A DNA stretch of 64,000 bases, taken from contig NZ_JAOEFD010000008.1 of the NCBI RefSeq assembly GCF_025420485.1, positions 1-64,000 on the forward strand, given 5' to 3'. Below are positions 1 to 33,300 of the stretch, in pieces. Both the position numbers and the translations under genes were made by a program. The DNA comes from Nesterenkonia marinintestina. GTDB taxonomy: Bacteria > Actinomycetota > Actinomycetes > Actinomycetales > Micrococcaceae. Each line of letters begins with the position of its first letter. The stretch's first letter is position 1. The notes beneath the pieces are model-generated. The model had not been told where the DNA came from and searched no databases. It saw nothing but the letters and a program-made list of their open reading frames with translations.

Positions 1-2025
1 CCCCCCCCCGTCCGGGGAGCTGCGTGTGAAGCGCTTCAGTGCGACCACCACAGTGGCAGTGACTACGGCACCGATGACCACCGCTAGTGCGAACAGGGCG
101 AACGCATTGATGGCGAAGAAGACGAAGGCTCCGCCGTGCGGGGCCTGTGAGGTGACCCCGAAGGCCATGGTCAGGGCACCAGTCGTCATGCCGCCCAGCA
201 TCGCGGCGGGCAGCACGCGCAGAGGGTCCGCGGCGGCGAAGGGGATCGCTCCCTCCGAGATGAACGCCGCACCCAGCAGCACCGCCGTCTTGCCGTTCTC
301 GCGCTCGGCGGCGGTGAACAGCCTCCGGTCGACGAAGGTCGCCAGGGCCATGCCCAGTGGGGGCACCATGCCGGAGGCCATCACCGCGGCCATGATCATG
401 AACGGACCGGTGTTCTCGGTGATGGAGGCGGCGCCGAGTCCGGCGACGGCGAACGAGTAGGCGACCTTGTTGATAGGTCCGCCCAGGTCGGAGCACATCA
501 TCAGGCCGAGCACTACACCGAGCAGGATAGCGGCGGTGCCGGTCATCCCCGACAGCCAGCTCTCCAGCGCGCCCGTCAGGGACGCGATCGGTCCGCCCAG
601 GAAGAGGTAGAGGACGCCGGAGGAGAGGATGGTGGCCACCAGGGGGATGATCACCACCGGCATCAGGCCGGCCAGCCAGCGGGGCACTGAGAGCTGCCGG
701 ATCCAGTACGCCGCCGCTCCGGCCATGACACCGCCGACGATGCCGCCGATGAACCCCGCGTCCATCCCATAGGCCACGGCACCGGCGATGAACCCGGGGG
801 CGATCCCGGGGCGGTCGGCCATGCCGTAGGCGATGTAGCCGGCGAGTGCGGGGACCAGGAAGCCCATCGCGGTACCGCCGATGACATAGAACACCGAGCC
901 CAGATAGGCGCCCAGCATGCCGAAGCCCCGGAAGGGGTCCGGAACGTCGGCCTCGGTGGGCAGGTTCCACAGGGCATTGTTCCCCGCGACGTCCTCGGCG
1001 ACGTCGGTGATGTTATATCCGCCGAGCAGGAAGCCCAGGGCTATCAGCAGACCGCCGGCGGCCACGAACGGGATCATGTAGGAGACGCCGGTCATCAGCA
1101 CGCGCTGGACCTTCTTGCCGAACCCCTCCTGGCCCTCTTCCTGCGCCTCGCCCTCAGAACCGGCCTCGGTGCCGACCACCTTGGCCTGGGGGTCCCGGGC
1201 GGCGGCCAGGGCACGTTCGATCAGCTGCCGAGGTTCGTCGATGCCCCGCTTGACCGGCACAGCGACGACCGGTTTGCCGGCGAAGCGCTGCTTGTCCCGG
1301 ACGTCGACGTCGGAGGCGAAGATGACCGCCTCGGCGGCATCGACCACCGAGGACGAGAGCTTGGAGGCCCCAGAGGACCCCTGCGTCTCCACGGCGATCT
1401 CCACACCCATCTCCTCGGCCGCCAGAGACAGCGAGTCTGCGGCCATGTAGGTGTGGGCGATCCCTGTGGGGCAGGCGGTGACCGCGACCAGCCGGCGGGA
1501 CCCCGCGCCGGCCGTCTCGCCGGCCGTCTCACCGGCGGGGACGGACTTCTCGATGGTCTCCTTGGGCTTCAGTGCCCCGTCCACGGCCTGGGAGATCAGG
1601 TCGACCACGGTCTGTTCCTCGGCGGCCTCTCGCAGGGACCCCACGAAGTCCTTCCGGACCAGGGACCGTGCCAGGGCCGAGAGGATCTTGAGGTGATCGG
1701 AGTCGGCACCGGCCGGTGCGGCGATGAAGAAGGCCAGGTCGGCGGGGCCGTCCTTGGCGCCGAAGTCGAGGGACTCCGGCAGGCGGGCGAAGGCCAGGGT
1801 CGGCTCGTCGACGGCCTCGGTCCGGCAGTGGGGGATGGCCACCCCGCCGGGCATGCCGGTCGAGGACTTCTCCTCGCGGGTCCAGGCGTCGGCGGCCAGG
1901 GCCTCGGCGTCGTCGGTGCGTCCGGCCGTCTGCACCATGGCGGCCAGGGCGCGGATCGCCTCGTGCTTATCCGTGGCACGGAGGGTGTCCAGAGTGACCA
2001 GGTCGGTGGTGATCATGCTGCTCAT
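1..2025 (-). CDS. fruA: PTS fructose transporter subunit IIABC (C-terminus cut by window edge)
   Basis: Membrane phosphotransferase that imports fructose and phosphorylates it to fructose-1-phosphate. Domain order is EIIA (about residues 1-150, phospho-acceptor His66 in IPHCRTE), a GETAGETAG linker, EIIB (about 176-275, phospho-acceptor Cys185 in TACPTGIAHT), then a long hydrophobic EIIC domain with many membrane segments. The frame runs off the window start without a stop, so at least the last few residues are missing. The ATG at 2025 overlaps the stop of the upstream kinase gene as ATGA, which fixes the start and implies translational coupling. With the kinase and the DeoR gene it forms a classical fructose operon. 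Confidence 0.95.
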   Translation of the reverse strand, partial: MSSMITTDLVTLDTLRATDKHEAIRALAAMVQTAGRTDDAEALAADAWTREEKSSTGMPGGVAIPHCRTEAVDEPTLAFARLPESLDFGAKDGPADLAFFIAAPAGADSDHLKILSALARSLVRKDFVGSLREAAEEQTVVDLISQAVDGALKPKETIEKSVPAGETAGETAGAGSRRLVAVTACPTGIAHTYMAADSLSLAAEEMGVEIAVETQGSSGASKLSSSVVDAAEAVIFASDVDVRDKQRFAGKPVVAVPVKRGIDEPRQLIERALAAARDPQAKVVGTEAGSEGEAQEEGQEGFGKKVQRVLMTGVSYMIPFVAAGGLLIALGFLLGGYNITDVAEDVAGNNALWNLPTEADVPDPFRGFGMLGAYLGSVFYVIGGTAMGFLVPALAGYIAYGMADRPGIAPGFIAGAVAYGMDAGFIGGIVGGVMAGAAAYWIRQLSVPRWLAGLMPVVIIPLVATILSSGVLYLFLGGPIASLTGALESWLSGMTGTAAILLGVVLGLMMCSDLGGPINKVAYSFAVAGLGAASITENTGPFMIMAAVMASGMVPPLGMALATFVDRRLFTAAERENGKTAVLLGAAFISEGAIPFAAADPLRVLPAAMLGGMTTGALTMAFGVTSQAPHGGAFVFFAINAFALFALAVVIGAVVTATVVVALKRFTRSSPDGGG

Positions 2026-3068
2026 GGTGTCCTCACAGTTCGTTCACGAGTGGGGTGGGGGTGGCCTGCACAGACGCTTCGTCGGGGGGCGAAGGCCGTG
2101 ACGTCCACGGCCTCGAGGTTGAGGTCCTCCGGGCGCGGCATCACGGATCCGGGGAGCGAGGCGGCGGCGCGGCCCTGCGCGGCCGCTCGGCGTAGCGCCT
2201 CTTCGGCCGTCGACCCGGACTCGTCTGCCAGCAGGTAGCCGGCCAGGGAGGCGTCTCCGGCGCCGACGGTGGAGCGGGCGACCAGGGTCGGTCCTGTGGC
2301 GCGCAGGACACCGTGGCCCTGCTGGTCGCGAGGGGGCACCAGCAGCGCACCGTGAGCGCCCAGGGTGACCAGGACGGTGCGGGCCCCGCAGGACTGCGCC
2401 CGGCGTGCCAGGTCCAGGACCTGCTCGGGTTCGGCCTCCAGCGCCTCAGGGGAGATGTCGGGGGCGGCCCCGGTGAGCCGGGTGACGAGTTCGAGAAGCT
2501 CTTCGGCATTGGGCTTGATCAGATCGGGGGAGGCGGCGACCGCGGCCGCCAAGGCTGCTCCGGAGGAGTCCAGGGCCACCTTCGGTGCGGCTGAGAGCAG
2601 GGCGTCGCGGAGTTCGGTGATGACTCGGGCGTAGAGGTCCTCCGGCATTCCGGGCGGCAGCGACCCCGCCAGCGCCACCCAGGAGGCTCCACCGGAGAGT
2701 GCGGCGGTCAGCTCGATGAGCGCACGTGTGCCGGCGTCGCCGAAGGTCGGTCCCGGCTCGTTGATCTTGGTGGTCACACCGCGGGGGTCGGTGACGGTGA
2801 TGTTGGTGCGCAGCGGTGCCCCGGCGGACACCGAGCGGTGAGGGACGCCAGCCTCGGTCAGGCCGGTGAGCACCGGGTCGCTCGGATCTCCCGGGAGCAG
2901 CGCCAAGGTCTCGCGGTCGGCGGCGCAGAGGGCGCGAGAGATGTTCACACCCTTGCCGCCGGGCTCCGCGGTGGCGCGGACCGCCCGCTGGACCGCACCG
3001 GTGATCAGGGCGTCGGCGAGTTCGACGGTCTTGTCGAGGCTGGGATTGGGGGTGACGGTGACGATCAT
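2022..3068 (-). CDS. fruK: 1-phosphofructokinase
   Basis: Cytoplasmic PfkB-family kinase that converts fructose-1-phosphate made by the PTS into fructose-1,6-bisphosphate. The 348-residue protein starts MIVTVTPNPSLDKT, typical of the family. It has the first PfkB signature PGGKGVNISRAL and the second signature TVGAGDASLAGYLL, whose Asp in GAGD is the catalytic base. The reading frame is open further upstream, but the ATG at 3068 overlaps the DeoR stop as ATGA and matches the family N-terminus. It sits between the regulator and the transporter in one operon. Confidence 0.95.
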   Translation of the reverse strand: MIVTVTPNPSLDKTVELADALITGAVQRAVRATAEPGGKGVNISRALCAADRETLALLPGDPSDPVLTGLTEAGVPHRSVSAGAPLRTNITVTDPRGVTTKINEPGPTFGDAGTRALIELTAALSGGASWVALAGSLPPGMPEDLYARVITELRDALLSAAPKVALDSSGAALAAAVAASPDLIKPNAEELLELVTRLTGAAPDISPEALEAEPEQVLDLARRAQSCGARTVLVTLGAHGALLVPPRDQQGHGVLRATGPTLVARSTVGAGDASLAGYLLADESGSTAEEALRRAAAQGRAAASLPGSVMPRPEDLNLEAVDVTAFAPRRSVCAGHPHPTRERTVRTP

Positions 3069-3886
3069 GGGGCCTCCGCACGGATCACGGTGACGCCTGC
3101 GGCGTGCAGAGCGTCGCGCAGTCGAGGCTGCGGGTCGGTGTCGGTGATGAGCACGGAGACCTCCTCGAGGTGGGCGAAGCGGACCAGTGAGCATCGGTCG
3201 AGTTTGGTGGAGTCGGCCAGCAGCACCACGGTGCGGGCGGCGGCGATCATGGCGGACTTGACCGCCGCCTCGGCCGGGTCGGGGGTGGAGAGGCCGAAAG
3301 AGGCGTCGATCCCATTGGTCCCCAGGAAGGCGACGTCGCATCGGCGGTCGGCCAGGGTGTGCAGGGCGGCGTCACCCACGACGGCGCCGGTGAGGCGGCG
3401 TACCCGTCCCCCTAAGGTCTCGACGTCGAAGCCTTCGACGTCGGCGAGCTTGCCGGCGATCGGCACCGCGTCGGTGAGCACGTACCGCGGCCGTGTGGAG
3501 GCGGTCGGGGTCGGCGTCTGGGAGACGAGTAGGTCGACGAGCACCTCGGTGGTGCTGCCGGCGTCGAGGATGAGGCTGGAGCTGGCCGAATCCGGCACGA
3601 ACTCCATGGCCGCGGCGGCGATCGCGCGCTTCTGCGGTGCGCGGTGGGACTGCCGGTCCCGCCAGGAGCTCTCCGCCCGCGAGGCCCCGTTGGACCCGTT
3701 GGAGGCGGCCACCGCCCCGCCGTGGACCCGTTGCAGGACGCCGTCGCGGGCCAGCCGGTCCAGGTCCCGCCGCACTGTCTCTGCAGTGACAGCACAGTCC
3801 TCGGCGATCTGTGCCACGGACACGGTGCCGTCACGGCGCAGACGACCCACGATGCGGTCGTGCCGTTCCGCGGCCAGAAGCGACAT
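3065..3886 (-). CDS. DeoR-family transcriptional regulator of the fructose operon
   Basis: A 273-residue DNA-binding regulator. An N-terminal winged helix (about residues 4-58, with VSVAQIAEDCAVTAETVRRDLDRL as recognition region) is followed by a sugar-isomerase-like effector domain with the LDAGSTTEVLVDLL motif. Family members usually sense a sugar phosphate, probably fructose-1-phosphate here. Start chosen at 3886 because CGGAGG lies 5-6 nt upstream; an in-frame codon at 3919 lacks this. First gene of the fruK-fruA operon, so probably autoregulated. Tandem repeats in the upstream gap are candidate operators. Confidence 0.9.
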   Translation of the reverse strand: MSLLAAERHDRIVGRLRRDGTVSVAQIAEDCAVTAETVRRDLDRLARDGVLQRVHGGAVAASNGSNGASRAESSWRDRQSHRAPQKRAIAAAAMEFVPDSASSSLILDAGSTTEVLVDLLVSQTPTPTASTRPRYVLTDAVPIAGKLADVEGFDVETLGGRVRRLTGAVVGDAALHTLADRRCDVAFLGTNGIDASFGLSTPDPAEAAVKSAMIAAARTVVLLADSTKLDRCSLVRFAHLEEVSVLITDTDPQPRLRDALHAAGVTVIRAEAP

Positions 3887-3937
3887 GGGAACCTCCGGGA
3901 CTCTGCAGTGCCGCGTCACGCTGTGACGGCAGACACA

Positions 3938-3996
3938 CCAATGTGGATTAGATTGACTTTATCTGTGTTTATCTGTGAATGCAACGCTCAATGTGG
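3938..3996. promoter_or_regulatory. Candidate promoter and operator of the fructose operon
   Basis: The gap upstream of the DeoR gene is AT-rich for this genome. It contains a perfect 10-bp tandem repeat TTTATCTGTG at 3958-3967 and 3968-3977, one helical turn apart, and CAATGTGG twice (3939-3946 and 3989-3996). On the minus strand a TTGCAT box (3979-3984) lies 17 nt from TAAAGT (3956-3961), so the repeats would fall in the spacer and -10. Assignment to the neighbouring DeoR protein is inference. Confidence 0.45.
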
Positions 3997-4104
3997 TCTA
4001 GCGAGGTCCTTGAGTGACCCTTCGCCGGGATGGGCCGGCGCGTATGCTCGGACGTGTTCAGGAAGGCGTCGCCCAGCGCGGCGGCACGGTGAGGAGGGTC
4101 CGCA

Positions 4105-4890
4105 GTGGCCGAGGACCGCACAGATGGGGCGCCGGAGGTCGGCAGCCGGAAGGGGCGGCGCCGAGAGCGGGAGGAGAAGTCCGCCGCTCGCGGTGGTCGT
4201 CGGAGGATGCCGTTCGCGCTGAGCCTGCTGCTCAACATACTGGTGGCCCTCGTCGTCCTCTCCGTGATCCAGCACTTCTGGGTGAAGGTGTACGCGGTGC
4301 CGTCGGGATCGATGGAGACGACGCTGGAGGTCGGAGACCGCATGCTCACCGACCGGACCGCCTACTCGGAGGAGGAGATGCCTCAGCGTCAGGACGTCGT
4401 GGTCTACAACGCCGACGAGGAATGGGAGGGGGACCTCCCCAGTCCGGAGCCGTCTGCCTTCGGAGATGCCGTGCGGTCCTTCGGGGATGTCACGAGTCTG
4501 GGTCCTTCGAACGAACAGGCGCTGGTCAAGCGTGTGATCGGGCTGCCCGGAGAGGAAATCGAATGCTGCGACGACGACGGTCGGATCACCGTCGACGGTG
4601 AACCGCTGGACGAACCGTACGTCTTTCAGGACCTGCCCTTCACTCCGGGCGAGGAGGACTGCTCGGGTGAGCCGATGTCGATGCGGTGTTTCGGACCGGT
4701 CACCGTGCCGGAGGGGCAGCTGCTCGTTCTCGGGGACCACCGATCCAACTCCGCCGACTCGGTGATCGCCTGCCGCGGTCTGGACGAGGACGAGGCCGAC
4801 GACGAGTGTGCGCGGTTCGTCGATCGAGAGGACGTCGTCGGGCGCGTGTTCGTCACCGTCTGGCCCCCGACGGGATGGGGCGGCCACTGA
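4105..4890 (+). CDS. lepB: Signal peptidase I
   Basis: Membrane-bound serine/lysine protease that removes signal peptides from secreted proteins. The 261-residue protein has a basic N-terminal tail, one membrane segment (about residues 37-56), the catalytic Ser69 in PSGSMETTL, the catalytic Lys142 in LVKRVIGLPGEE, and the conserved GDHRSNSADS box near the C-terminus. The insertion between the Ser and Lys boxes (about 100-138) is acidic and Gly/Pro-containing. GTG start at 4105 is supported by GAGGAGGG at 4091-4098. It is divergent from the fructose operon. Confidence 0.95.
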   Translation: MAEDRTDGAPEVGSRKGRRREREEKSAARGGRRRMPFALSLLLNILVALVVLSVIQHFWVKVYAVPSGSMETTLEVGDRMLTDRTAYSEEEMPQRQDVVVYNADEEWEGDLPSPEPSAFGDAVRSFGDVTSLGPSNEQALVKRVIGLPGEEIECCDDDGRITVDGEPLDEPYVFQDLPFTPGEEDCSGEPMSMRCFGPVTVPEGQLLVLGDHRSNSADSVIACRGLDEDEADDECARFVDREDVVGRVFVTVWPPTGWGGH

Positions 4891-24896: not shown

Positions 24897-24941
24897 GGAG
24901 CCGCCTGCCGGAATCGAACCGGCGACCTATTCATTACGAGT
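24897..24941 (-). repeat. attL: 45-bp copy of tRNA-Thr 3' half
   Basis: Identical over 45 bp to 33226-33270. Contains the T-arm, variable loop and anticodon region of tRNA-Thr on the minus strand, then diverges after GAGT. It is the displaced host 3' end, not a functional tRNA. Confidence 0.93.
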
Positions 24942-25044
24942 ACGTGGAAGGCTGCCCGCTGACATGCGGTTCTATGAGAATCCCCAGGTCAGGGCGGTTT
25001 ACTAGGTTGGTGGAGGACGGCTAAAGATGGGTTGATCCGACTCT

Positions 25045-25064
25045 CGTGCATATTTTGTGCATAG
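25045..25064 (+). promoter_or_regulatory. Left arm-type repeat pair (putative integrase/excisionase site)
   Basis: CGTGCATATTTTGTGCATAG contains GTGCATA twice (25046-25052 and 25057-25063), 11 bp apart. The same 20-mer with two changes occurs at 33145-33164 near the other end, in the same orientation. It is about 104 bp inside attL. Confidence 0.6.
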
Positions 25065-25090
25065 TGTCGGCGTGACCCGGTGCCCGCGTG

Positions 25091-25243
25091 GGGCTCAACT
25101 GGATGATTTTCATCCAGTTGCGTCTGCAACTGGGCCCTAGGGGCCCAGATGGATCACCCCGAATCGTCCCTGTGCCTCAGGTGGGCTCAACTGTCCGAAA
25201 CGCGGGCAGTTGCATCTGCAACTGGGGGATTTTCCCCCAGTTG
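25091..25243. repeat. Two 92-bp-spaced modules of paired CAACTG hairpins
   Basis: Module A: CAACTGGATGA/TCATCCAGTTG with TTT loop (25096-25120), 6 nt, then CAACTGGGCCC running into CTGGGCCC/GGGCCCAG (25130-25148). Module B: CAACTGTCCG/CGGGCAGTTG (25188-25212), 6 nt, then CAACTGGGGGA/TCCCCCAGTTG with TTT loop (25219-25243). Both begin with GGGCTCAACTG. Seven CAACTG/CAGTTG words lie within 150 bp of non-coding DNA beside attL. Candidate replication origin, packaging site or tandem terminator. Confidence 0.7.
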
Positions 25244-25274
25244 ATGATGTAGTCACCCTAGCTATAACGGCACA

Positions 25275-25844
25275 CTAGTACGTGTAGACCTCTATCGGAG
25301 CCCCTTGGTCGTGGCCTTCGGGTCGGAATGCCTGCGGGAAGTGGGCGACGTCCCCGTGCTGCACGGCAGCTTCTACCCGTTCCTTGCGGACCAGCGTCTT
25401 AGGCTCTCCGTTGCCGGGCTCGTAGGCCGGATTCGGCACCCGTACCGAGCGGCGGTCGCCTCCGTGCCTCACGTCCAGCTCGCGGCCCAGCACCTCCGGG
25501 GCCAGGCGGCGGACTTCGGCGTACCAGTCTGCGGAGCGGTGATCCGTCCGCTTCCCCGTATGGGCTAGGTGAAGGTGCATCATCTCGTGGACGACGACGT
25601 CATCGACGGCCCTGCGGCCTCTCTCGAACAGAGTGGAGGCGATGCTGATGCGAGGCGTCCGCAGCAGCTCGGCGTCGAGGCGCGTAAGCCCGATGCAGCG
25701 GCCATAGGCGGTCAGTCCGATCACCATCGGCACGCTTTCAGGGATGCCGGGAAAGAGGTGCCGATGCCGTTGGTAGGCGTCGTGGACGTAGTCGCCGGCC
25801 TCTCCCCACAGTAGGGCGGCTGCCTCTCTATATGTAGTCTCCAT
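25275..25844 (-). CDS. SprT-like zinc metalloprotease domain protein
   Basis: A 189-residue protein with a zinc-protease motif HEMMH at residues 86-90, preceded by hydrophobic DDVVV and followed by LHLAHTGKRTDHRSADWYAEV. This HExxH...H arrangement resembles SprT/ImmA-type domains. SprT relatives cleave DNA-protein crosslinks, ImmA relatives cleave phage repressors, and capsid maturation is a third option given the nearby capsid gene. The ATG at 25844 has no Shine-Dalgarno; TAGTAT lies 8 nt upstream, so leaderless. It is separated from the capsid gene by 435 nt and has its own promoter. Confidence 0.7.
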   Translation of the reverse strand: METTYREAAALLWGEAGDYVHDAYQRHRHLFPGIPESVPMVIGLTAYGRCIGLTRLDAELLRTPRISIASTLFERGRRAVDDVVVHEMMHLHLAHTGKRTDHRSADWYAEVRRLAPEVLGRELDVRHGGDRRSVRVPNPAYEPGNGEPKTLVRKERVEAAVQHGDVAHFPQAFRPEGHDQGAPIEVYTY

Positions 25845-26279
25845 AGTTAGTAATACTACACTACTGGGAGGGGGCCCGGCGCGTAACGCTTCCCCGCAGG
25901 TCAGCTATGACACCACCGCCCCTGCCGCAGAGAGAGGCGCCGGCTAATGCCACGGGGGTGCCACCCAAGGGCCCGGGGAGGGCCATCTGGGCCGGTTTGG
26001 TAGACCGGCCTATTTCTGGGCTGTGTGAGAATGTGCCAATGCCCGAGGGGTGCCACGCTGGGCTGGGGGGAGGGGCATTTGAATGTCGTTACTGGAAATC
26101 CCCATCAGCGAAAAATGCTGTGAATAGAGATCGCAATGCCAGAGGGTGCGACGGCGATTGATACGTGGAGGGGCATTCGAGCGACTCCCGGGCCGCGGGA
26201 CCAGCGGGGCGTCAGCTCACAGACACACGGAGCCCCGGCCGGCGCGAATGTCCGACCGGGGCGTGCGTGGGAGTGTGTG
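25845..26279. other. 435-nt region between metalloprotease and capsid genes
   Basis: No convincing gene. A plus-strand frame (25907-26161) has no homology that I recognise and a poor ribosome-binding site. The region holds a GGCCGGT/ACCGGCC hairpin (25990-26010), two GGGGTGCCAC words (about 25955 and 26044) and a locally lower GC content near 26080-26140. It could include a packaging or regulatory site, but nothing decisive is visible. Confidence 0.4.
26232..26262 (-). terminator. Terminator after capsid gene
   Basis: GCCCCGGCCGG (26232-26242) pairs with CCGACCGGGGC (26252-26262), one mismatch, starting 17 nt beyond the capsid stop codon. Confidence 0.65.
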
Positions 26280-27101
26280 TCAGGCCGTCACGTTGACCTT
26301 CGCCAGCTTCTCCGGGTGGATGAATCCGAATCCGACGCGGGCGGTGGCCTTCACTGCGACCCGGTCCGAGCTGAAGAACACGTCACGGGACGACTCGACT
26401 GTGACGGTGTCACGCACAACGGTGGCGATGGCGCTGCTGTCGATGACCCACAGCGTGCCCTCGGTGGCGTGCTCGGAGGCGATGACGGGCAGGCCGAGCA
26501 CGGTGGTGACGTCCTCGATCAGCGCCCTGTTGGAGCCCTCGGAGTCCTTGAGCTGGGCGACACGCATCACGTCTCGCGGGTGTGCGAGGATCGCGGTCGG
26601 AGTACCGCCGTTGACGGCGACCTCAGTGCGGGCGTGCAGCAGCGGGTCCAGGTTGTCCAGGGTGCCGCCGTCGACCTCGTGCACGTCGCTGAGTCCGGCC
26701 AGGCCTGCCGGCCCCGGCGCTTCGGCGTTGCCGAAGAAGGCCTCGTCGGTGCGCCAAATGATCGCGTTGGCCAGGGAATGTCCGACCGTCTCGATAGCGG
26801 ACGGTGCGCTGTCCTCGGCCAGCTCGCGGCTGATCGGAATCAACCCGGCGACCTTCGAGGGCACGATGGTGACCTCATCGATGTCGACGCCGCTGGGCAG
26901 GATCTCCTCGCCCTCGGCGGTCCACTTGGCTGCGGCTCCGGCGCGGACGACGGGGACGCGGTAGGTGGTGGACCCGGTCGTGAATACCTGGGCGACCTCG
27001 GCCCGGGCGGCGATGCTGGTGTCGAGCAGCGGCTGCAGGACCAGGGATGAGCGGTCGTCGGTGGCAAGTGCCTGGACGTTGGTGGTCAGCATGGTAGACA
27101 T
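26280..27101 (-). CDS. HK97-type phage major capsid protein
   Basis: A 273-residue capsid protein of the HK97 fold: N-arm (MSTMLTTNVQALATDDRSSLVLQPLLDTS), E-loop/P-domain region (TYRVPVVRAGAAAKWTAEGEEILPSGVDIDEVTIVPSKVAGLIPISRELAEDS) and C-terminal A-domain with RDTVTVESSRDVFFSSDRVAVKATARVGFGFIHPEKLAKV. It is shorter than most (about 300-385) because it lacks an N-terminal delta domain; a separate scaffold-like gene lies just upstream. Expressed from its own promoter (27284-27289). No portal, protease or terminase gene accompanies it. Confidence 0.92.
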   Translation of the reverse strand: MSTMLTTNVQALATDDRSSLVLQPLLDTSIAARAEVAQVFTTGSTTYRVPVVRAGAAAKWTAEGEEILPSGVDIDEVTIVPSKVAGLIPISRELAEDSAPSAIETVGHSLANAIIWRTDEAFFGNAEAPGPAGLAGLSDVHEVDGGTLDNLDPLLHARTEVAVNGGTPTAILAHPRDVMRVAQLKDSEGSNRALIEDVTTVLGLPVIASEHATEGTLWVIDSSAIATVVRDTVTVESSRDVFFSSDRVAVKATARVGFGFIHPEKLAKVNVTA

Positions 27102-27253
27102 GTTTTGCCCCTTTCAGAAGGCATGGGCGTTGAGAACCGTTACGGTGCTCGGACCGGGAGGCGCGGCCTCTACCGGGTGCCCTGCCTGGGGCGGTGAGCT
27201 GGTGGTGAGCCCGCCCCGTGCGACGCCGGGACGAACGGGGCGGACTGACACCG

Positions 27254-27289
27254 AGTGTCGCTCTCGTTGAAGACGACACTTAGATTATA
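27254..27289 (-). promoter_or_regulatory. Promoter of the capsid gene with palindrome at the start site
   Basis: Consensus -10 TATAAT on the minus strand (27284-27289), rare in such GC-rich DNA. Immediately downstream is a perfect inverted repeat AGTGTCG/CGACACT (27274-27280 and 27254-27260) that would overlap the transcription start. No good -35 box is visible, so an activator may be needed. The leader to the capsid ATG is about 175 nt. Confidence 0.6.
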
Positions 27290-27303
27290 CCCCAGCCCCG
27301 TAT

Positions 27304-27858
27304 CTAGTGCGGGTCGCGGATGACGTCTTTCCAGCCTGTCGAGGGGGTCCGCTCGGGCCCGGTGCCGGCCCACTGAGGAACGCCGCCAGGCCGTCGAATC
27401 CCGAAGCGCTCGGCGGTCTCCCGCGCTGCCGCGTCGACGGCCTCGGGGTCATAGGTGCCCTCGTCGGTGAAGAACCCCGCCGGGTCGTGTCCCGCCGCTC
27501 GCAGCGCCGCCAGGCCGAGGCCATGCCGGGCGACCTGATCGCCGAGGACGACCTCGCTCAATGAGTTGAGTTTGGTAACGGCCGCGTCGCGCTCGGCCTC
27601 AACTTCCCGGAGCTTGAGCCGGTGACGCTTCGCCTCCCGCCGCAGCTTCGAGACGTCGCCAGTCTCGTCGTCCCCGGTGTCGTCCTGAGCCTCGGCGTCG
27701 GCGGCGTCGTCGGGGTGTTCAGCTTCCGGTGTCGGCGGCTGCGGTTCGTCGGGCGTAGTCCCATCCGTATTCGTCTCCGATGAGGACGTCGCGGGTGTGG
27801 AGTCCTCCGGAGTGACGGAATCGGATTCGATAGTCGAGTCCTTCTGGGGGTCGCTCAT
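27304..27858 (-). CDS. Phage scaffold-like protein
   Basis: A 184-residue protein with an acidic, Ser/Thr/Pro-rich N-terminal half (ends ETGD), a basic coiled-coil segment (KLRREAKRHRLKLREVEAERDAAVTKLNSL, about 84-113) and a C-terminal part with GFFTDEGTYDPEAVDAAARETAERFGIRRP. This arrangement directly upstream of a capsid gene is typical of capsid-assembly scaffolds. GAGGAG precedes the ATG at 27858. Its first 140 nt overlap the end of the upstream zinc-ribbon gene in another frame. Confidence 0.75.
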   Translation of the reverse strand: MSDPQKDSTIESDSVTPEDSTPATSSSETNTDGTTPDEPQPPTPEAEHPDDAADAEAQDDTGDDETGDVSKLRREAKRHRLKLREVEAERDAAVTKLNSLSEVVLGDQVARHGLGLAALRAAGHDPAGFFTDEGTYDPEAVDAAARETAERFGIRRPGGVPQWAGTGPERTPSTGWKDVIRDPH

Positions 27859-28054
27859 AGTCGTGCTCCTCAATGATCGTTCGTTCGGTGTCGGTGGCCG
27901 GTCGGATGCCGGCATAGGTGCGGTGGTCGCGTTCGATGGTGCTGGTCTCGGCGGCGTACCGGCCGCAGTGAGTGCGGTGCTGGTGCAGCAGGTCGCGCAG
28001 CCACTGACCTCCGCATTCTCCGCACGGCGGCGGGGCGGGGATGGAGTCATTCAT
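27719..28054 (-). CDS. Small zinc-ribbon-like protein
   Basis: An 111-residue protein of unknown function whose N-terminus has CGECGGQW...HQHRTHC, a likely zinc-binding set (Cys, Cys, His, Cys). The ATG at 28054 overlaps the previous stop by 6 nt. The C-terminal third (from about residue 66) overlaps the scaffold gene, so that part may be unconstrained or the stop may lie on a later mutation. Confidence 0.55.
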   Translation of the reverse strand: MNDSIPAPPPCGECGGQWLRDLLHQHRTHCGRYAAETSTIERDHRTYAGIRPATDTERTIIEEHDYERPPEGLDYRIRFRHSGGLHTRDVLIGDEYGWDYARRTAAADTGS

Positions 28055-28313
28055 CGGTGGCGTCCTCCGTGTGGTTGGCTCGTAGGCTCTGGGCCGCGAT
28101 GATGCGGTCCAGGATTTCGTCGGTTGTCTTGTTGTCGCCGAGTCCGACCGATGCGAGCCGCAGCAGGCCGTGGACTGCGGCGGCGAATGAAGGGGCGTAG
28201 GTGATCGTTCGGAAGGCTGCGTCGACGTCTCCACGATGGAGGTGTCTCACGGCGGCGGCCGCGTTGCGCAGCCCTTCGGCGGCGTCGGCGTCGGTCAGTT
28301 GGTAGCGGCTCAT
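28047..28313 (-). CDS. Small helical protein of the element
   Basis: An 88-residue, Ala-rich helical protein (MSRYQLTDADAAEGLRNAAAAVRHLHRGDVDAAFRTI). No family recognised. The ATG at 28313 overlaps the stop of the coiled-coil gene as ATGA, so it is translationally coupled. Confidence 0.6.
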   Translation of the reverse strand: MSRYQLTDADAAEGLRNAAAAVRHLHRGDVDAAFRTITYAPSFAAAVHGLLRLASVGLGDNKTTDEILDRIIAAQSLRANHTEDATDE

Positions 28314-28630
28314 GATGCCCCCTCGGCCTGGTACTTCTGACGCCACTTGCGGGCCTCCGAGCGTGTGTCGCGCAGCTTGTCCAGCAGCTCGTCGACTCGA
28401 CGGCGGTCAGCCTCAGCTTCCATCCGTGCGAGCTTGAGTTCTGCGAGGTTCTGACGCGCTCGGGCCTTCCACAGACCAATCTCTGATCGCAGCTCATTGA
28501 CCCCCTGCTCTGGTGGTGGGCCGGGGCGTGGGGTGGTCGAGGGCCTGGGCGGCTGGTCGGCATCGTCAGGAATCATGTTGGGCAGCTCGGGTTCCGGTGA
28601 CCCATCGGCTGCGTGCATCGCGTTGCTCAT
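28310..28630 (-). CDS. Small coiled-coil protein of the element
   Basis: A 106-residue protein with a Pro-rich N-terminal part and a predicted coiled coil (about residues 45-100: ELRSEIGLWKARARQNLAEL and following heptads, rich in Arg/Glu/Leu). Function unknown. GAGAGGA precedes the ATG by about 10 nt. It starts 19 nt after the ATPase stop, in the same direction. Confidence 0.6.
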   Translation of the reverse strand: MSNAMHAADGSPEPELPNMIPDDADQPPRPSTTPRPGPPPEQGVNELRSEIGLWKARARQNLAELKLARMEAEADRRRVDELLDKLRDTRSEARKWRQKYQAEGAS

Positions 28631-28649
28631 TATCGTGTTGTCCTCTCAG

Positions 28650-29918
28650 TCATGCGGCCCAGGGGTCGCCGTGGATCGCGTCGCAGGTGTAGCAGCCGCC
28701 GATTACGTAGTCGGTGCCGTGGTTGGGGCAGGGGCTCGAAGGTGTCACTTCTACGCTCGAAGGTGTCGAAGGTGTCGCGTCCGCGAACGCTGACACCTTG
28801 GACACTTTCGTGACACCTTCGGCGGGATCGGAGGTGTCGGTGTCCGTCTCGTCGGGGTCGATCTGCCAGACCCATCCGGCCCCGTACCCCGACTTAGCCG
28901 AGGTGATCCGCGGAGCCTTGGACCGCTTGCGGGCGTTCTTGATCTCGTCCTTGGAGAATCCCTCAGCGAGTCCCGCTTTCATGACGGCAGCGGCCTTGGC
29001 CTCCCAGCCTTCGCAGCCGCGGAGGTAGTCGAGTACGAATCCCTGAGCGGCGTTGCGGTCCTCGTCGTCGGCCTCGTCGTCAGCCCCGCGATTGATGATG
29101 TCTCCGACGCTGATATCGGACTCACCGAGGAACCGGACCCGCCCGACGGAGGTGACACCGTCCTCGACCGGCACGTCGACCGATTCGAGAATGAACTTCC
29201 AGGACGTACTACCGGCACCGTAATTCGACTTGTCCTGAGTGATGACACGCTCGCCGGTGTCCTCGTCGGTGGCGAAGGCCAGGAACGACCGGGTCAGGTC
29301 GCGCCAGGCGTGCGAGCCGGAAAGCTTGTGACTGACCGAGCCGGCACCCTTTCCAAAGTGATTGATCATCACGACACCGAGTTCGTGCCGCTGCGCCAGG
29401 GCCATCAGCGGCTCGTATGCGCGGCGGACATCCTGCACTTTGTTCATATCTGCGGTGCCCATCATCGACGGTGCCGGGTCCAGGATGATGAGTCGGGCCC
29501 CGGTCTCCTCGACCGCCTGCCGCAGCAGTCCCATGTCGAGGGGGAACCGCAGCTCGCGCTGCAGGGTCACCGCGTCGATCGTGGTCTCCGCCTGCACCTG
29601 AGCGACCCGCCTCAGATCGGCACCTGCAGCAGTGAGGCGCGGCACCGTCACGGTCGACCAGTCATCTTCCGGGCCGAAGTAGATGACGGTCTGAGGCTTG
29701 CCGAGGAAGTCACCGGGCAGCTCACCGCGGGTGAGCAGCGCGGCGGTGTAAAGGGCGAACGTCGACTTACCCTCCCCACCATTACCCGCGCAGATCGTCG
29801 CAGTGCCCAGCGGCATCACTCCGACGTCGTCGAGCTTGAACAGCCACGCCTGCCGCTTCGGGGTGATCTGATGAGCGTAGGTGACCCGCAGGGCCCCCGC
29901 ATCGCTGACTTCACTCAC
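28650..29918 (-). CDS. RepA/AAA_25-type RecA-fold ATPase (replicative helicase-like)
   Basis: A 422-residue RecA-fold ATPase. Walker A GNGGEGKST is at residues 45-53 (Lys51), Walker B LIILDPAPS, a sensor motif VVMINHFGKGAGSVSHKLSGSHAWRDLTRS, and a C-terminal Cys/His cluster CPNHGTDYVIGGCYTC that may bind zinc. This set matches plasmid/phage RepA-like hexameric helicases. It is the element's only large replication candidate, suggesting post-excision replication. The GTG start at 29918 overlaps the previous stop as GTGA. Confidence 0.82.
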   Translation of the reverse strand: MSEVSDAGALRVTYAHQITPKRQAWLFKLDDVGVMPLGTATICAGNGGEGKSTFALYTAALLTRGELPGDFLGKPQTVIYFGPEDDWSTVTVPRLTAAGADLRRVAQVQAETTIDAVTLQRELRFPLDMGLLRQAVEETGARLIILDPAPSMMGTADMNKVQDVRRAYEPLMALAQRHELGVVMINHFGKGAGSVSHKLSGSHAWRDLTRSFLAFATDEDTGERVITQDKSNYGAGSTSWKFILESVDVPVEDGVTSVGRVRFLGESDISVGDIINRGADDEADDEDRNAAQGFVLDYLRGCEGWEAKAAAVMKAGLAEGFSKDEIKNARKRSKAPRITSAKSGYGAGWVWQIDPDETDTDTSDPAEGVTKVSKVSAFADATPSTPSSVEVTPSSPCPNHGTDYVIGGCYTCDAIHGDPWAA

Positions 29919-30157
29919 GCAGCCGTCCTCCTTTCGTTGCGTCGTGCATCTTTTCGGGCCCTCAGTGCCCGCAGCCCAGCGATCACAGTCGCCGCAGGTT
30001 CCATCTGCGCCGCGATCCGCTGCTGATGCTGCAGCTGCCGCTCGGCCAGCTCGGCGCGGGCGTCCCGTGCTCCGTGGACGTGGCCTGCGGCGAAGCCCTC
30101 GAACCAGTCCGAGCAGGTACAGCGCGGCAATCGGGGCCAGATCTCGGCGGAGGTCAT
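29915..30157 (-). CDS. Small CxC-containing helical protein of the element
   Basis: An 80-residue protein with a short CTCSDWFEGFAAGHVHGARDARAELAERQ segment and a basic helical C-terminus. Phage genomes often have similar small proteins, but I cannot name a family. Coupled to the neighbouring genes by ATGA (start) and GTGA (end) overlaps. Confidence 0.55.
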   Translation of the reverse strand: MTSAEIWPRLPRCTCSDWFEGFAAGHVHGARDARAELAERQLQHQQRIAAQMEPAATVIAGLRALRARKDARRNERRTAA

Positions 30158-30381
30158 GCGGCCTCCTCGGAGCGTCGGCCCATCGTCACCGGGACCAGCC
30201 TGCAGATAAACATCTCTGCCTTCAGTCCTCGCCGCTCGGCCCTTTGAAGGACTTTCTCCGCGGCGTCGAGGCTGAAATGAACCGAACGCCGGAACGTCGG
30301 GGACCCGGACTTGGACCGGATCTCGGTCACCACCACGGGGCGGTGATCGATCAGGTGTCGCATGAACTCGTGCTCGTTCAC
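30154..30381 (-). CDS. Small basic protein of the element
   Basis: A 75-residue protein (GTG start at 30381) with RSKSGSPTFRRSVHFSLDAAEKVLQRAERRGLKAEMFICRLVPV, an alpha/beta pattern with many Arg residues. Unknown function; lies between coupled genes with 4-nt overlaps on both sides. Confidence 0.55.
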   Translation of the reverse strand: MNEHEFMRHLIDHRPVVVTEIRSKSGSPTFRRSVHFSLDAAEKVLQRAERRGLKAEMFICRLVPVTMGRRSEEAA

Positions 30382-30770
30382 TGACCATCACCGCCCTCGG
30401 CTCGTCGGGCGATCTCGCCGATCCGCCATGACTCCAGTGCATCCGCCTCGTCGTTCAGGTACTCGGCGATCTTTCGCAGGTCCCCGATGCTGGTACGGAT
30501 CCGGACCTTCTGCCCGGTGTCCCCGTCGAGGACATAGACTCCAGCCGTCAGCGACCATTCCTCGCTCCGGTGGAAGAGGAGCTTGTCGTCGATCACGTGC
30601 CAGGAAACATGCACGGTGAAGCCCTCGCCGTCGTCTCCGTAGGGTCCGGCCTCACAGTCGCCGTAGCGATGCACGAGGCCTCGGCGGCTGTAGTCCCTGT
30701 GATGGGCACCGCCCCCGTCGCGGAAACAATCGTGCTTGGTACAGAAGTCGGGATGTGCTGCGCCGCTCAT
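30378..30770 (-). CDS. Cys/His-rich small protein, DUF6907-like
   Basis: A 130-residue protein. The N-terminal FCTKHDCFRDGGGAHHRDY looks metal-binding. The remainder (FTVHVSWHVIDDKLLFHRSEEWSLTAGVYVLDG) is beta-rich, ending in a helix (DLRKIAEYLNDEADALESW). The pattern recalls DUF6907 proteins of actinobacterial mobile elements, from memory only. The ATG at 30770 overlaps the previous stop as ATGA. Confidence 0.6.
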   Translation of the reverse strand: MSGAAHPDFCTKHDCFRDGGGAHHRDYSRRGLVHRYGDCEAGPYGDDGEGFTVHVSWHVIDDKLLFHRSEEWSLTAGVYVLDGDTGQKVRIRTSIGDLRKIAEYLNDEADALESWRIGEIARRAEGGDGQ

Positions 30771-30943
30771 CGCTGACCACCGCCGTTCAGCCCCAGCGCC
30801 TGGCGCAGCGCCTCGTCGATCCGCATCCCACGCTCCTGTGCGACGGCGTCGAGGTCTGCGAGATCCCAAACCGGACGACCGGCCCACCTGCTGACCATCT
30901 CGACCAGAGCGTAGGGATCGGTGGTGATATCCTGTAGTGACAT
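30767..30943 (-). CDS. Small protein, first gene of the early replication operon
   Basis: A 58-residue acidic protein (MSLQDITTDPYALVEMVSRWAGRPVWDLADLDAVAQERGMR). No family recognised. GAGGAGGG precedes the ATG at 30943. The 120 nt upstream to the excisionase-like gene contain no gene. Confidence 0.6.
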   Translation of the reverse strand: MSLQDITTDPYALVEMVSRWAGRPVWDLADLDAVAQERGMRIDEALRQALGLNGGGQR

Positions 30944-31064
30944 GTTGGTCCCTCCTCTTTTCTGGGGGTTCTGCGAGCGGTCAGCGCCGAGATTGGACGT
31001 CGGTGGCGCTGGCCGCTTTCTCTGTTTCGGGGGTCTCAGGCGCATCTGCGCTTCCTCCTTGTTG

Positions 31065-31280
31065 TCATGCGGTTCGTTGCGCCTGTGATGCCTCGTACTG
31101 TTGCTCGATCCACTTCAAAACGTCCTCCCGGCGATAGCGGACTTGCCTCGGCGTCAGCTTGAAGCTCGCGGGGCCGCCGTGGCCGCGGTGCCTGTAGTAG
31201 CGGAGCGTCCCGGTGGGTACGCCTGTCGCGGCACTGACCTGGCGCTCTGTCGGGAGCGGGGGCAGCTCGTCCAGTTCCAT
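31065..31280 (-). CDS. Excisionase-like helix-turn-helix protein
   Basis: A 71-residue MerR/Xis-type DNA-binding protein: TERQVSAATGVPTGTLRYYRHRGHGGPASFKLTPRQVRYRREDVLKWIEQQ. The turn and the C-terminal REDVLKWIEQQ wing are the usual form of actinophage recombination directionality factors. AGGAGG precedes the ATG at 31280. It is divergent from the XRE repressor, so synthesis would be switched off in the integrated state. Confidence 0.8.
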   Translation of the reverse strand: MELDELPPLPTERQVSAATGVPTGTLRYYRHRGHGGPASFKLTPRQVRYRREDVLKWIEQQYEASQAQRTA

Positions 31281-31299
31281 TGATTCCTCCTGACCTATT

Positions 31300-31315
31300 A
31301 CACCCTGCGCGGTGT
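31300..31315. promoter_or_regulatory. Repressor operator 1 (excisionase promoter)
   Basis: ACACCCTGCGCGGTGT, a 16-bp imperfect palindrome with ACACC/GGTGT ends. On the minus strand it abuts TAATAG, the probable -10 of the excisionase gene. Matches operator 2 in length and ends. Confidence 0.65.
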
Positions 31316-31392
31316 TAGTCGCTCGCTTTGCGACTCACAAATGAGTGTATAGGCAGAATACACCCGTGGCAAGCGTTGGTCATGCCGTTTCA

Positions 31393-31413
31393 ACACCGCT
31401 GGCGGTGTAGTCT
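31393..31413 (+). promoter_or_regulatory. Repressor operator 2 with -10 of the XRE gene
   Basis: ACACCGCTGGCGGTGT (31393-31408) is a perfect 7+2+7 palindrome. Its last base starts TAGTCT (31408-31413), which lies 7 nt before the XRE ATG. A dimeric XRE repressor bound here would autoregulate its own gene. Confidence 0.68.
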
Positions 31414-31420
31414 GGGAGGT

Positions 31421-31981
31421 ATGGGACAGACAGAGGCCGCGCCGGGACCAAGTGGAGCGCAGCAGCTCAAGAACTTCAGAGAGAACATGAAGGCTGCTCG
31501 GCGTAGAGCGGATGGCATGACGCAGACCGATCTGGCGAACGCTATGAACGCTAGGGGGCACGTCTTTCGTCAGCAGACCGTCCAGAAGATCGAGAGCGGC
31601 GACCGATCGTTGCAGTTCGACGAGGCGGCGGAGATTGCAGACATCCTCGGTCTGCCGTTGGACCGGCTGACCCAGGGGTCGTCGGCAGTGGAGTCCCTAT
31701 CAGACATCTATGGGCACGCTGCCGCGTTGGCTGAAGCCAGCGGCAAGGCCAGAGCCTTCGTGGAGCAGTGGCTAGACCTTCAGGCTAATATCCCCGCCTA
31801 CCTTCGACTGGCGGCAGGCGTGGATGCTAAGCGCGAGCTGACCGAGCGTGACCGTGAGGTGTTCGAGGAAGCGGTCAGCGCGCTCCAGCGGTGGGCGGCG
31901 ATCGACTCGGCGGATGCGCTGCTCGCACAGCTTCAATTGGCACACCGCCTGCCTCGCCACGACGAGCAACGCGGTGGATGA
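31421..31981 (+). CDS. XRE-family repressor of the element
   Basis: A 186-residue regulator. The helix-turn-helix lies at about residues 20-75 (MTQTDLANAMNARGHVFRQQTVQKIESGDRSLQFDEAAEIADILGLPLDRL). A helical C-terminal part probably dimerises. GGGAGG precedes the ATG at 31421, but the -10 at 7 nt also permits leaderless translation. Its likely operators flank the divergent promoter. The stop overlaps the integrase start, so repressor and integrase are co-translated. Confidence 0.82.
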   Translation: MGQTEAAPGPSGAQQLKNFRENMKAARRRADGMTQTDLANAMNARGHVFRQQTVQKIESGDRSLQFDEAAEIADILGLPLDRLTQGSSAVESLSDIYGHAAALAEASGKARAFVEQWLDLQANIPAYLRLAAGVDAKRELTERDREVFEEAVSALQRWAAIDSADALLAQLQLAHRLPRHDEQRGG

Positions 31982-33183
31982 TGCCCCGGCGTCGTGAAGG
32001 GGCGTCCTGGGTGCAGGACTTGTGGCATGTCCGCGACCCCGACACGGGCCGGCGTGTCCGCTCGAAGGCATACGGGCGGGGGAGCCGGTGGCGGGGCAAC
32101 ATCATCGTCGAGGGGCGGCCGCGTACCAAGGCGTTCGCCCGCAGAATCGACGCTGACGAGTGGGTGAAGAATGTCAGCGCGTCACTGGTGTCCGGCCAGT
32201 ACGTCCACGAGCGGGCCGGGGATGTGCTCGTCCGGGACGTGATGGACAAGTTCATCGCCGGCGTCGACGTGAAGCACTCGACGCGGCTGGCGTACAAGTC
32301 CGCGATCAAGGCCCAGATCACGCCACGCTGGGGGAGTGTCCGAGTCGCTGACGTCACCCCCTCTGCGGTGCGGGCGTGGCTGGTGGACATGCAGCGCGGC
32401 GACCCCGACGCGGAGACTAAGCGGGGCCGCCAGGGCCTCAGCACGGGGTCGGCACGTAAGACCGGCCGCATCTTGTCGATGGCCCTAGACGTCGCCGTTC
32501 AGGACCGCCTCATCCGAGAGAACCCCATGCGCCACGTCAGACTGCCGCGTGAGAGTGAAGCCCGGCATGGCATGAGTCTGACCAGCGACCAGCTGCACGC
32601 TCTGGCCGATGCTATGCCGACACGCGGCGACCGGACGCTGACGCTGACGCTGGGGTATACGGGGCTCAGGTGGGGCGAGGCGGTCGGGCTGCAGGTCCGC
32701 TCCGTCGACCTCGACCGTCGCCGGGTCCACGTCCGGCGAACCTACTCCGAGGCCGGCGGGTCGATCCGCGAGGAGACTCCGAAGTCCCACGAGGCTCGAT
32801 GGGTGCCGTTCCCTCCGTTCCTCGTCACCCTGCTGCGGGAGCAGATCGAGGGGAAGTCACCGGACGACGACGTGTTCACGTCCGCCCAGGGTGGACCGCT
32901 GCGGGGCACTAATTGGCTGCCGCGGGTGCTGCGTCCGGCCTTGGAGCGTACTGGTGTCCCCGATGCTGCGCAGCGCACGATCCACGATCTGCGGCACACC
33001 TATAGCACTCTGGCGATCCATGCCGGCGCGAACGTGAAGCAGTTGCAGAAGGCGCTGGGCCACGCTGACGCGGGGATCACCTTGAACCAGTACAGCGACG
33101 TTTTCGAGGACGACTACGCGGAGCTGGGGGACCGGATGGAGCCTCGTGCATATTCCGTGCATAGCGCCGAGGTCGAGACATGA
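31978..33183 (+). CDS. Tyrosine-recombinase integrase
   Basis: A 401-residue site-specific recombinase for integration/excision at tRNA-Thr. An N-terminal arm-binding-type domain is followed by a SAM-like core-binding domain (about 85-180) and a catalytic domain with Arg231 (GYTGLRWGEA), His336 and Arg339 (HDLRHTYSTL), His362 (ALGHADAG) and nucleophile Tyr372 (LNQYSDVF). All catalytic residues are intact. The ATG at 31978 overlaps the repressor stop as ATGATG. The gene ends 43 nt from attR, and its 3' coding end carries the right arm-type repeat. Confidence 0.95.
   Translation: MMPRRREGASWVQDLWHVRDPDTGRRVRSKAYGRGSRWRGNIIVEGRPRTKAFARRIDADEWVKNVSASLVSGQYVHERAGDVLVRDVMDKFIAGVDVKHSTRLAYKSAIKAQITPRWGSVRVADVTPSAVRAWLVDMQRGDPDAETKRGRQGLSTGSARKTGRILSMALDVAVQDRLIRENPMRHVRLPRESEARHGMSLTSDQLHALADAMPTRGDRTLTLTLGYTGLRWGEAVGLQVRSVDLDRRRVHVRRTYSEAGGSIREETPKSHEARWVPFPPFLVTLLREQIEGKSPDDDVFTSAQGGPLRGTNWLPRVLRPALERTGVPDAAQRTIHDLRHTYSTLAIHAGANVKQLQKALGHADAGITLNQYSDVFEDDYAELGDRMEPRAYSVHSAEVET
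33145..33164 (+). promoter_or_regulatory. Right arm-type repeat pair within the integrase 3' end
   Basis: CGTGCATATTCCGTGCATAG has GTGCATA twice at 11-bp spacing. It matches the left copy (25045-25064) at 18 of 20 positions. It codes for residues near the integrase C-terminus, 62 bp from attR. Confidence 0.6.
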
Positions 33184-33184
33184 C

Positions 33185-33222
33185 GAAACCCCCGGCCAGA
33201 TATCGCTCTGACCAGGGGTTTC
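33185..33222 (-). terminator. Element-borne terminator for tRNA-Thr and integrase
   Basis: GAAACCCCCGGCCAGA (33185-33200) pairs with TCTGACCAGGGGTTTC (33207-33222), two mismatches, 6-nt loop. It ends the integrase on the plus strand and the restored tRNA-Thr on the minus strand. Confidence 0.75.
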
Positions 33223-33225
33223 GAT

Positions 33226-33270
33226 GGAGCCGCCTGCCGGAATCGAACCGGCGACCTATTCATTACGAGT
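33226..33270 (-). repeat. attR: 45-bp repeat inside tRNA-Thr
   Basis: Identical to 24897-24941. Restores the 3' half of tRNA-Thr from the anticodon loop to the acceptor end, so integration leaves the tRNA functional. Confidence 0.93.
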
Positions 33271-33300
33271 GAATCGCTCTGCCGACTGAGCTAAGGCGGC
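33228..33300 (-). tRNA. tRNA-Thr (anticodon CGT), integration site
   Basis: Cloverleaf on the minus strand: acceptor GCCGCCT/AGGCGGC, D-arm GCTCAGTCGGCAGAGC, anticodon stem ATTCA/TGAAT with loop CTCGTAA giving CGT, T-loop GGTTCGATTCC. 73 nt with discriminator T. The 5' half belongs to the host, the 3' half to the element. Confidence 0.96.

Follow-up and report, generated by a model that had tools for sequence, protein, structure and literature searches.

What is a mobile element that encodes the shell of a phage head and nothing recognizable of portal, packaging motor, tail or lysis system? This question is raised by an 8,329-bp insertion in the window, the 64,000-nucleotide stretch of Nesterenkonia marinintestina DNA analysed here, which is contig C36 of a 2.58-Mb genome in 37 contigs. 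The likely answer, given with good confidence, is an integrated phage satellite of the kind called capsid-only here: the head shell would be its own product, and portal, terminase, tail and lysis functions would come from a helper phage. Helper use and particle formation are predicted from the gene content, and the head would probably be a smaller one.

The element and its gene content

The insertion is bounded by direct repeats identical at 45/45 bp (an extended 63-bp pair is 89% identical), and the right copy provides the 3' end of a tRNA-Thr(CGT) gene, which is intact (33225-33300, minus strand). These are the coordinates and the site that had been proposed from the letters alone, in what is called here the sequence-only reading. 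Fourteen open frames lie between the repeats, with repressor and integrase genes on the plus strand and the remaining genes on the minus strand. The features that bear most directly on the nature of the element are the following (E, expectation value; HTH, helix-turn-helix).

24897-24941, plus strand: attL, a 45-bp repeat duplicating the tRNA-Thr 3' end, exact copy of 33226-33270
26280-27101, minus strand: HK97-type major capsid protein (MCP), 273 amino acids, without N-terminal delta domain (PF05065, TIGR01554)
27304-27861, minus strand: scaffold-like protein, upstream of the MCP (phrog_233, a weak match, E 0.0019)
28650-29918, minus strand: RepA-like AAA_25 replication-type ATPase (PF13481, E 1e-21; phrog_10729, polymerase/primase, in the C-terminal half)
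31065-31280, minus strand: excisionase-like HTH/MerR protein (Xis-like; HTH_17, PF12728, E 1e-7)
31300-31315 and 31393-31408, strand not applicable: two operator-like palindromes, ACACC-N6-GGTGT, between the Xis and repressor genes (pattern scan)
31328-31981, plus strand: HTH_3 repressor (PF01381, E 9e-9), likely true start near 31421 by eye
31891-33183, plus strand: tyrosine integrase (Phage_integrase, PF00589, E 3e-21), likely true start near 31980 by eye
33226-33270, plus strand: attR, the 45-bp repeat inside tRNA-Thr(CGT) (repeat comparison, tRNA call)

The profile matches agree with the functions first suggested for these genes, with only a weak match for the scaffold. Pfam was applied to 14/14 proteins and PHROGs and NCBIfam to 10 each, and within this coverage no match to a portal, terminase, tail or lysis protein was obtained, bearing out the earlier claim of their absence; nor did the three collections yield a head maturation protease. 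Beyond the MCP and scaffold-like protein, the sole head-type match is a weak one to phrog_12049, on the gene at 28310-28630. The palindrome pattern has two matches in the whole 64 kb (0.06 expected), both in the gap between repressor and Xis genes, a layout that suggests a genetic switch. One claim found no support: the capsid genes had been placed on their own promoter, and a sigma-70 scan returned 1 site against 0.9 expected and none upstream of the capsid gene.

The MCP matches Phage_capsid (PF05065) with E 5e-30 and TIGR01554 with E 7e-26, the latter over profile positions 136-384 of 385. Because this match begins at position 136, the N-terminal delta (scaffold) domain is missing, and a separate scaffold-like protein combined with the lack of a delta domain would fit a shell that needs no maturation protease. 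The MCP family profile (E up to 1) matches 30 solved sequences; 29 carry the name of a capsid or head protein, and the other is a Gp6. An encapsulin reading was rejected on these relatives and on Pfam, which gives PF05065 only.

Relatives of the element

The same genome carries a sister element (L006, on contig C8 of G000), which has the same layout and lies between 53-bp repeats in tRNA-Arg(CCT). Its MCP is 67% identical to that of the window element, its integrase 42%, its scaffold-like protein 36% and one small gene 59%, and no portal, terminase or tail gene was found in it. A single prophage that was cut short is thus no adequate description of the window element. Between window and sister element, the replication proteins show no relationship outside the last ~34 residues. 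Two more MCPs in this genome (L007 on contig C12, L008 on C23) belong to elements with portal, MCP and connector genes that are ~87-91% identical; in each (L007 and L008, positions 1-4300), the contig begins within the element, at the portal gene.

A wider family was collected with a nine-row MCP profile (E 1e-25 or better), which matched 30/396 genomes of the order, 16/295 of the family and 24/394 of the class; the three samples overlap and include the genome under study, as does a further survey of relatives that found the MCP in 7/197 genomes. Members occur in many genomes of one family of the same class (f22), perhaps Mycobacteriaceae, and named hosts of capsid-only relatives are Nocardia amamiensis, Actinomyces urogenitalis and A. 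culturomici. Single-protein MCP scans of genome contigs and viral contigs gave no match, and a two-row profile found four named loci in genome contigs and none in viral contigs.

Stretches of up to 20 kb were fetched and their open reading frames (ORFs) clustered, giving 56 loci, one of them a phage record (WillG, L005). By hidden Markov models (HMMs) made from these clusters, a portal is present in 16 loci, 14 of which also have a large terminase (TerL) and two of which are cut by contig ends; three have a split TerL without portal, and 37 have neither. None of these 37 capsid-only loci (0/37) matches the portal or TerL HMMs, some of the neighbourhoods being cut by contig ends, and in this respect, as in the sister element, no sign of a fuller prophage at the locus was seen. 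At the limits of the material, L090 begins 818 bp before its MCP, L073 ends just after its MCP, and L078 and L087 are whole short contigs. Connector-like or HNH-like matches among capsid-only loci occur in L005 and L081/L087. In the class sample, the local HMM recognized a portal in 9/26 loci and none in the other 17; three of these 17 match the small terminase (TerS) of the WillG type, with PHROGs applied to ten proteins of that sample.

Gene order is largely constant in 28 delimited elements, running from the integrase end through regulatory and small genes, replication, scaffold and MCP to a cargo position. The tRNA genes that the relatives occupy, flanked by att repeats, are of many kinds. 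Scaffold-like homologues precede the MCP in 24/28, an Xis match is found in 19, the integrase is divergent in 22 and co-directional in 6, and the replication gene, which codes for a primase, a helicase or RepA, belongs to one of several types that are unrelated to each other. Among 39 capsid-only or split-terminase genome loci, exact flanking repeats were found in 27/39 (at least 20 bp in 22, 15-19 bp in 5), delimiting elements of 7.5-10.9 kb; the remainder comprise one tandem array, seven loci without repeats and four without an integrase in the stretch. The 28 elements hold 212 unassigned ORFs, 159 of them of at least 85 amino acids, and 150 from 27 elements were scanned together, the window's five being scanned apart and four others left aside. 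Pfam gave 17 families on these 150 ORFs, none of them portal, terminase, tail or lysis; PHROGs, among the 25 of 65 families listed, gave a terminase small subunit in 2 members.

Maintenance and mobility

In a tree of 58 MCP rows, 17 portal-bearing rows form one side of a branch with support 100/99. The window MCP lies among capsid-only rows (97/96, 7 rows) and then within a 99/94 group of 25 rows that includes the split-terminase loci. The 38 capsid-only rows need 3 changes of state, against 16.9 in shuffles. In a tree of 85 rows, which leaves out the broken MCPs of L157 and L169, 8 changes suffice for the 53 capsid-only rows, where shuffles give 26, and a single clade of portal-bearing rows is rejected (approximately unbiased test, p 0.0016). 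The capsid-only state is clustered and probably old, and not of strictly single origin.

The ratio of nonsynonymous to synonymous substitution (dN/dS) of the MCP is about 0.3-0.4 in three pairs (for window against sister, dN 0.27 and dS 0.70), indicating purifying selection on the gene; an integrase comparison was left out, being misaligned over 26 codons. Traces of movement are seen in the relatives. L110 contains two exact 8,057-bp copies head to tail, and L087 (G283, contig C35) is a 9,087-bp capsid-only contig whose ends overlap by 95 bp; it has an HNH-like gene, lacks a recognized integrase and is perhaps a plasmid-like capsid satellite. Terminal overlaps are what assemblers leave on circular molecules, and the exact tandem pair and the circular-type contig point to mobility of the relatives. 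A 77-bp terminal overlap is also present in L112, a portal-bearing contig, and L100 (G308:C1:80000-99999) contains a tandem of two elements with portal genes, spaced by 9,752 bp and with a longest exact run of 6,601 bp.

A candidate packaging array

Downstream of the MCP gene lies a non-coding array that may serve as a packaging site.

25944-26176, minus strand: array of three ~43-45-bp units (starts 26133, 26036 and 25944), candidate cos/pac-type packaging site

A ~45-bp motif occurs three times at this place, at spacings of 92-117 bp, in the window element and likewise in the sister. The unit pattern, built from the same six units (three from the window, three from the sister), is absent elsewhere in 179 scanned records, several of which overlap, and was found in 0/60 simulated windows. 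An 86-bp core of the array is 84% identical between window and sister, compared with 71% for the MCP gene. The greater likeness of the core than of the MCP gene, with replication proteins that differ, favours a putative recognition site for a factor common to both elements, for instance the terminase of a helper, over an origin for the element's own replication protein. A hairpin reading was rejected: four units folded as DNA did no better than shuffles.

Proposed cycle and rival explanations

For a satellite of the capsid-only type, the following cycle can be envisaged. A helper phage would relieve the repressor, and the element would excise and then replicate. Scaffold and MCP would build a head shell around the portal of the helper, with no need of a protease; the helper terminase would recognize a site on the element, for which the three-unit array beside the capsid gene is the candidate, and fill the head, and the tail and lysis proteins of the helper would complete and release the particle. 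A shell of its own would match the head size to the ~8-kb genome and exclude helper DNA.

One alternative is that the locus is a decaying remnant of a full prophage that has lost its packaging and tail genes. The missing virion genes, the small size and the few relatives with broken frames speak for it; nevertheless, the same reduced gene set recurs in 37 loci, most of them with att repeats, integrases and whole MCP frames, capsid-only rows are clustered on the tree, the MCP is under the constraint described above, and exact tandem and circular-type relatives exist. Decay is accordingly judged quite unlikely, and the sequence-only view that random decay is unlikely and that a satellite fits best is upheld. 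It is likewise quite unlikely that the MCP acts as an interference or head-resizing protein, co-assembling with or poisoning the helper shell rather than forming a full head. The lack of portal and protease, the scaffold-like partner and the remodelling of helper capsids by other satellites, which PMC10690885 describes, would suit such a role. The protein is a whole HK97-type subunit, however, matched to the C-terminal end of the profile, and matching phage records above 40 kb share at most about 29% identity with it, making mixed shells less likely.

Two further rivals concern the source of the missing parts and the beneficiary of the particle. That the element is a hyper-satellite, drawing portal and motor from the co-resident portal-bearing satellites on C12 and C23 rather than from a full phage, is very improbable: two elements with portal, MCP and connector genes do share the genome, in which no full prophage was detected, but both are cut at contig starts and tails would still be missing. 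A query for a large terminase in this genome gave no match, a result that is uninformative with a single protein query. The notion that the host maintains the locus for its own benefit, as a domesticated compartment or a gene-transfer particle, is barely credible; domesticated particle formation was the alternative offered by the sequence-only reading. It would account for a capsid gene under selection, and the solved relatives of the MCP include Rcc01687 chains, presumably gene-transfer-agent capsids. It becomes less likely because the relatives sit in many tRNA genes with att repeats; the element also has an integrase, a repressor and an Xis-like gene, the MCP is patchy among relatives (7/197 and 16/295 genomes), and the Pfam scan gave PF05065 only.

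Several results weigh against the capsid-only satellite itself. The genome gave no match to PF04860 (portal), PF10145 (tail) or PF03354 (terminase) and no helper was found in it, a weak test in that these models also miss the portal genes present on C12 and C23. The putative packaging site did not turn up in any of the phage or viral records searched: the array block had no match in viral contigs (exact pattern), in phages (distant search) or in 57 relatives. A statistic for repeats, applied to the regions downstream, was silent in other members as well as on the window array itself, which leaves two elements in which the array is known. Distant families could escape the portal and TerL HMMs, these being derived here from the ORF clusters of relatives, ORFs below 85 amino acids lay outside the pooled scan, and the PHROGs negative rests on 25 of 65 families listed. 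Finally, the intact frames claimed for this element are found in most relatives, with a few broken: an internal MCP stop occurs in 1/39 rows of the order sample (G416) and 0/21 of the family sample, the MCP of L169 is in two pieces, that of L157 was not recovered whole, and L018, which stems from a draft genome of 65% completeness, has its integrase split over two frames.

Relation to known satellites

Elements combining integration genes with a capsid gene are known. PMC10654092 describes phage-like regions of Mycobacterium with integrase and MCP, including phiRv1 and phiRv2, as candidate phage-inducible chromosomal islands (PICIs), with tyrosine integrases in tRNA genes and in some cases terminase, helicase or scaffold genes. 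The window element has the integration machinery and MCP by which these are defined, in a host of another order. They are not sorted there by portal, a word absent from the main text, and some carry a terminase, whereas the window element has none. Capsid-forming PICIs (cf-PICIs) are defined in PMC10690885 by protease, portal, connectors, TerL, TerS and HNH, needing only tails, and their mean size is given as 14 kb in PMC10803314. An HK97-type head protein of its own and integration genes are common to the window element, which at 8.3 kb has only MCP and scaffold-like protein and lacks portal and connectors, maturation protease and TerL/TerS/HNH. Some relatives (L096-L103, L111-L116) do have portal, TerL and connectors, together with a gene that by eye is HNH-like, and their MCPs form a separate clade in the 58-row tree. 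The Streptomyces satellites MulchRoom and MiniFlayer (PMC10690885) are likewise actinobacterial with own capsid and scaffold, but carry TerS, TerL and portal, none of which the window element has.

Among deposited genomes, the closest are twelve Mycolicibacterium phage records of ~11 kb (OR387110-OR387121), WillG and Alyssa1 among them, whose MCP is 27.5-28.9% identical to the window MCP, on a long branch. An integrase is present and, as in the window element, no portal or large terminase is annotated in WillG and Alyssa1; for WillG none was found in 8/17 proteins by PHROGs or in its ORFs by local HMM. Unlike in the window element, the integrase of these phages is of the serine type, and TerS, connectors and a tape measure protein are encoded, in WillG also a scaffold. 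Megablast of the whole window element and of the whole L077 against phages gave no match.

With Staphylococcus aureus pathogenicity islands (SaPIs), other PICIs and P4, the window element shares site-specific integration, a repressor switch, its own replication protein and the expected borrowing of helper motor and tails; these reuse and remodel the helper capsid, whereas the window element encodes its own MCP. It carries an integrase, a divergent repressor with an Xis-like gene and a replication gene, taken to be classical PICI/SaPI features, and lacks the portal, terminase, tail and lysis genes of a full prophage. Known, then, are capsid-forming PICIs and integrase-plus-MCP candidate PICIs; the variant with a shell and no portal or motor would be new. 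Portal-less, motor-less capsid satellites were not found as a separate class in the accessible parts of the literature searched (including PMC10654092, PMC10803314, PMC11389934 and PMC10023795), subscription journals being mostly outside its scope.

The evidence is evenly poised on a broader proposition, namely that Actinobacteria host a large and old group of satellites encoding only a shell (MCP and scaffold), with no portal or motor, whose heads would be built on a foreign portal, crossing a compatibility of portal and shell supposed to be bound to lineages, and some of which a short DNA array may mark for the helper motor. Satellites without a portal must build on a foreign one, so that this compatibility would be crossed routinely. 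If true, this would be a third economy, beside satellites that remodel the helper shell and cf-PICIs that supply head and motor in full. Such elements would also put to the test whether a portal from a different source can nucleate an HK97 shell. The sister pair, the exact tandem pair and the phage-record relatives offer concrete test material.

Other features and observations

The remaining genes of the element are small or lack an assignment.

25275-25844, minus strand: SprT-like metallopeptidase at the cargo position (PF10263, E 6e-6, just above the cut-off)
27719-28051, minus strand: 110-amino-acid protein with a cysteine motif, 59% identical to its sister-element homologue
28047-28346, minus strand: 99-amino-acid protein, open frame without assignment
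28310-28630, minus strand: 106-amino-acid protein, coiled-coil-like by eye, 37% identical to the sister (phrog_12049, 'head morphogenesis', weak, E 0.03)
29915-30442, minus strand: protein without assignment, C-terminal part 62% identical to the sister
30154-30381, minus strand: 75-amino-acid protein with homologues in L006, L015 and L018
30378-30887, minus strand: open frame without assignment, no profile match (Pfam, PHROGs)
30767-31045, minus strand: 92-amino-acid protein (phrog_24318, function not known, E 0.0003)

PADLOC on eight window proteins gave weak HTH-type matches to the repressor only. The right-hand neighbour of the element, a universal stress protein by eye, is a multi-copy gene.

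The residues shared by the otherwise unrelated replication proteins of window (28650-28750) and sister (L006:4316-4420) form a cysteine-rich tail, 77% identical over 26 residues and 68% over 34, which may be a docking tail common to both or mark a conserved junction at which modules are swapped. Among the relatives, the large terminase of L016, L073 and L074 (L121) is split into ATPase and nuclease ORFs, alongside MCP and scaffold and without a portal. A tape-measure-like protein is encoded in the portal-less L161 (where the best match is named endolysin), L172 and L175, as also in WillG, and may act as if setting tail length on borrowed tails. Gene order in L160 and L170 differs from that of the other loci. 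At the cargo position of the sister element (L006:407-1401) lies an apparent SocA/Panacea antitoxin and Doc/Fic toxin pair, placed there by eye from one PF13274 (SocA_Panacea) and one PF02661 (Fic) match in the pooled Pfam scan.

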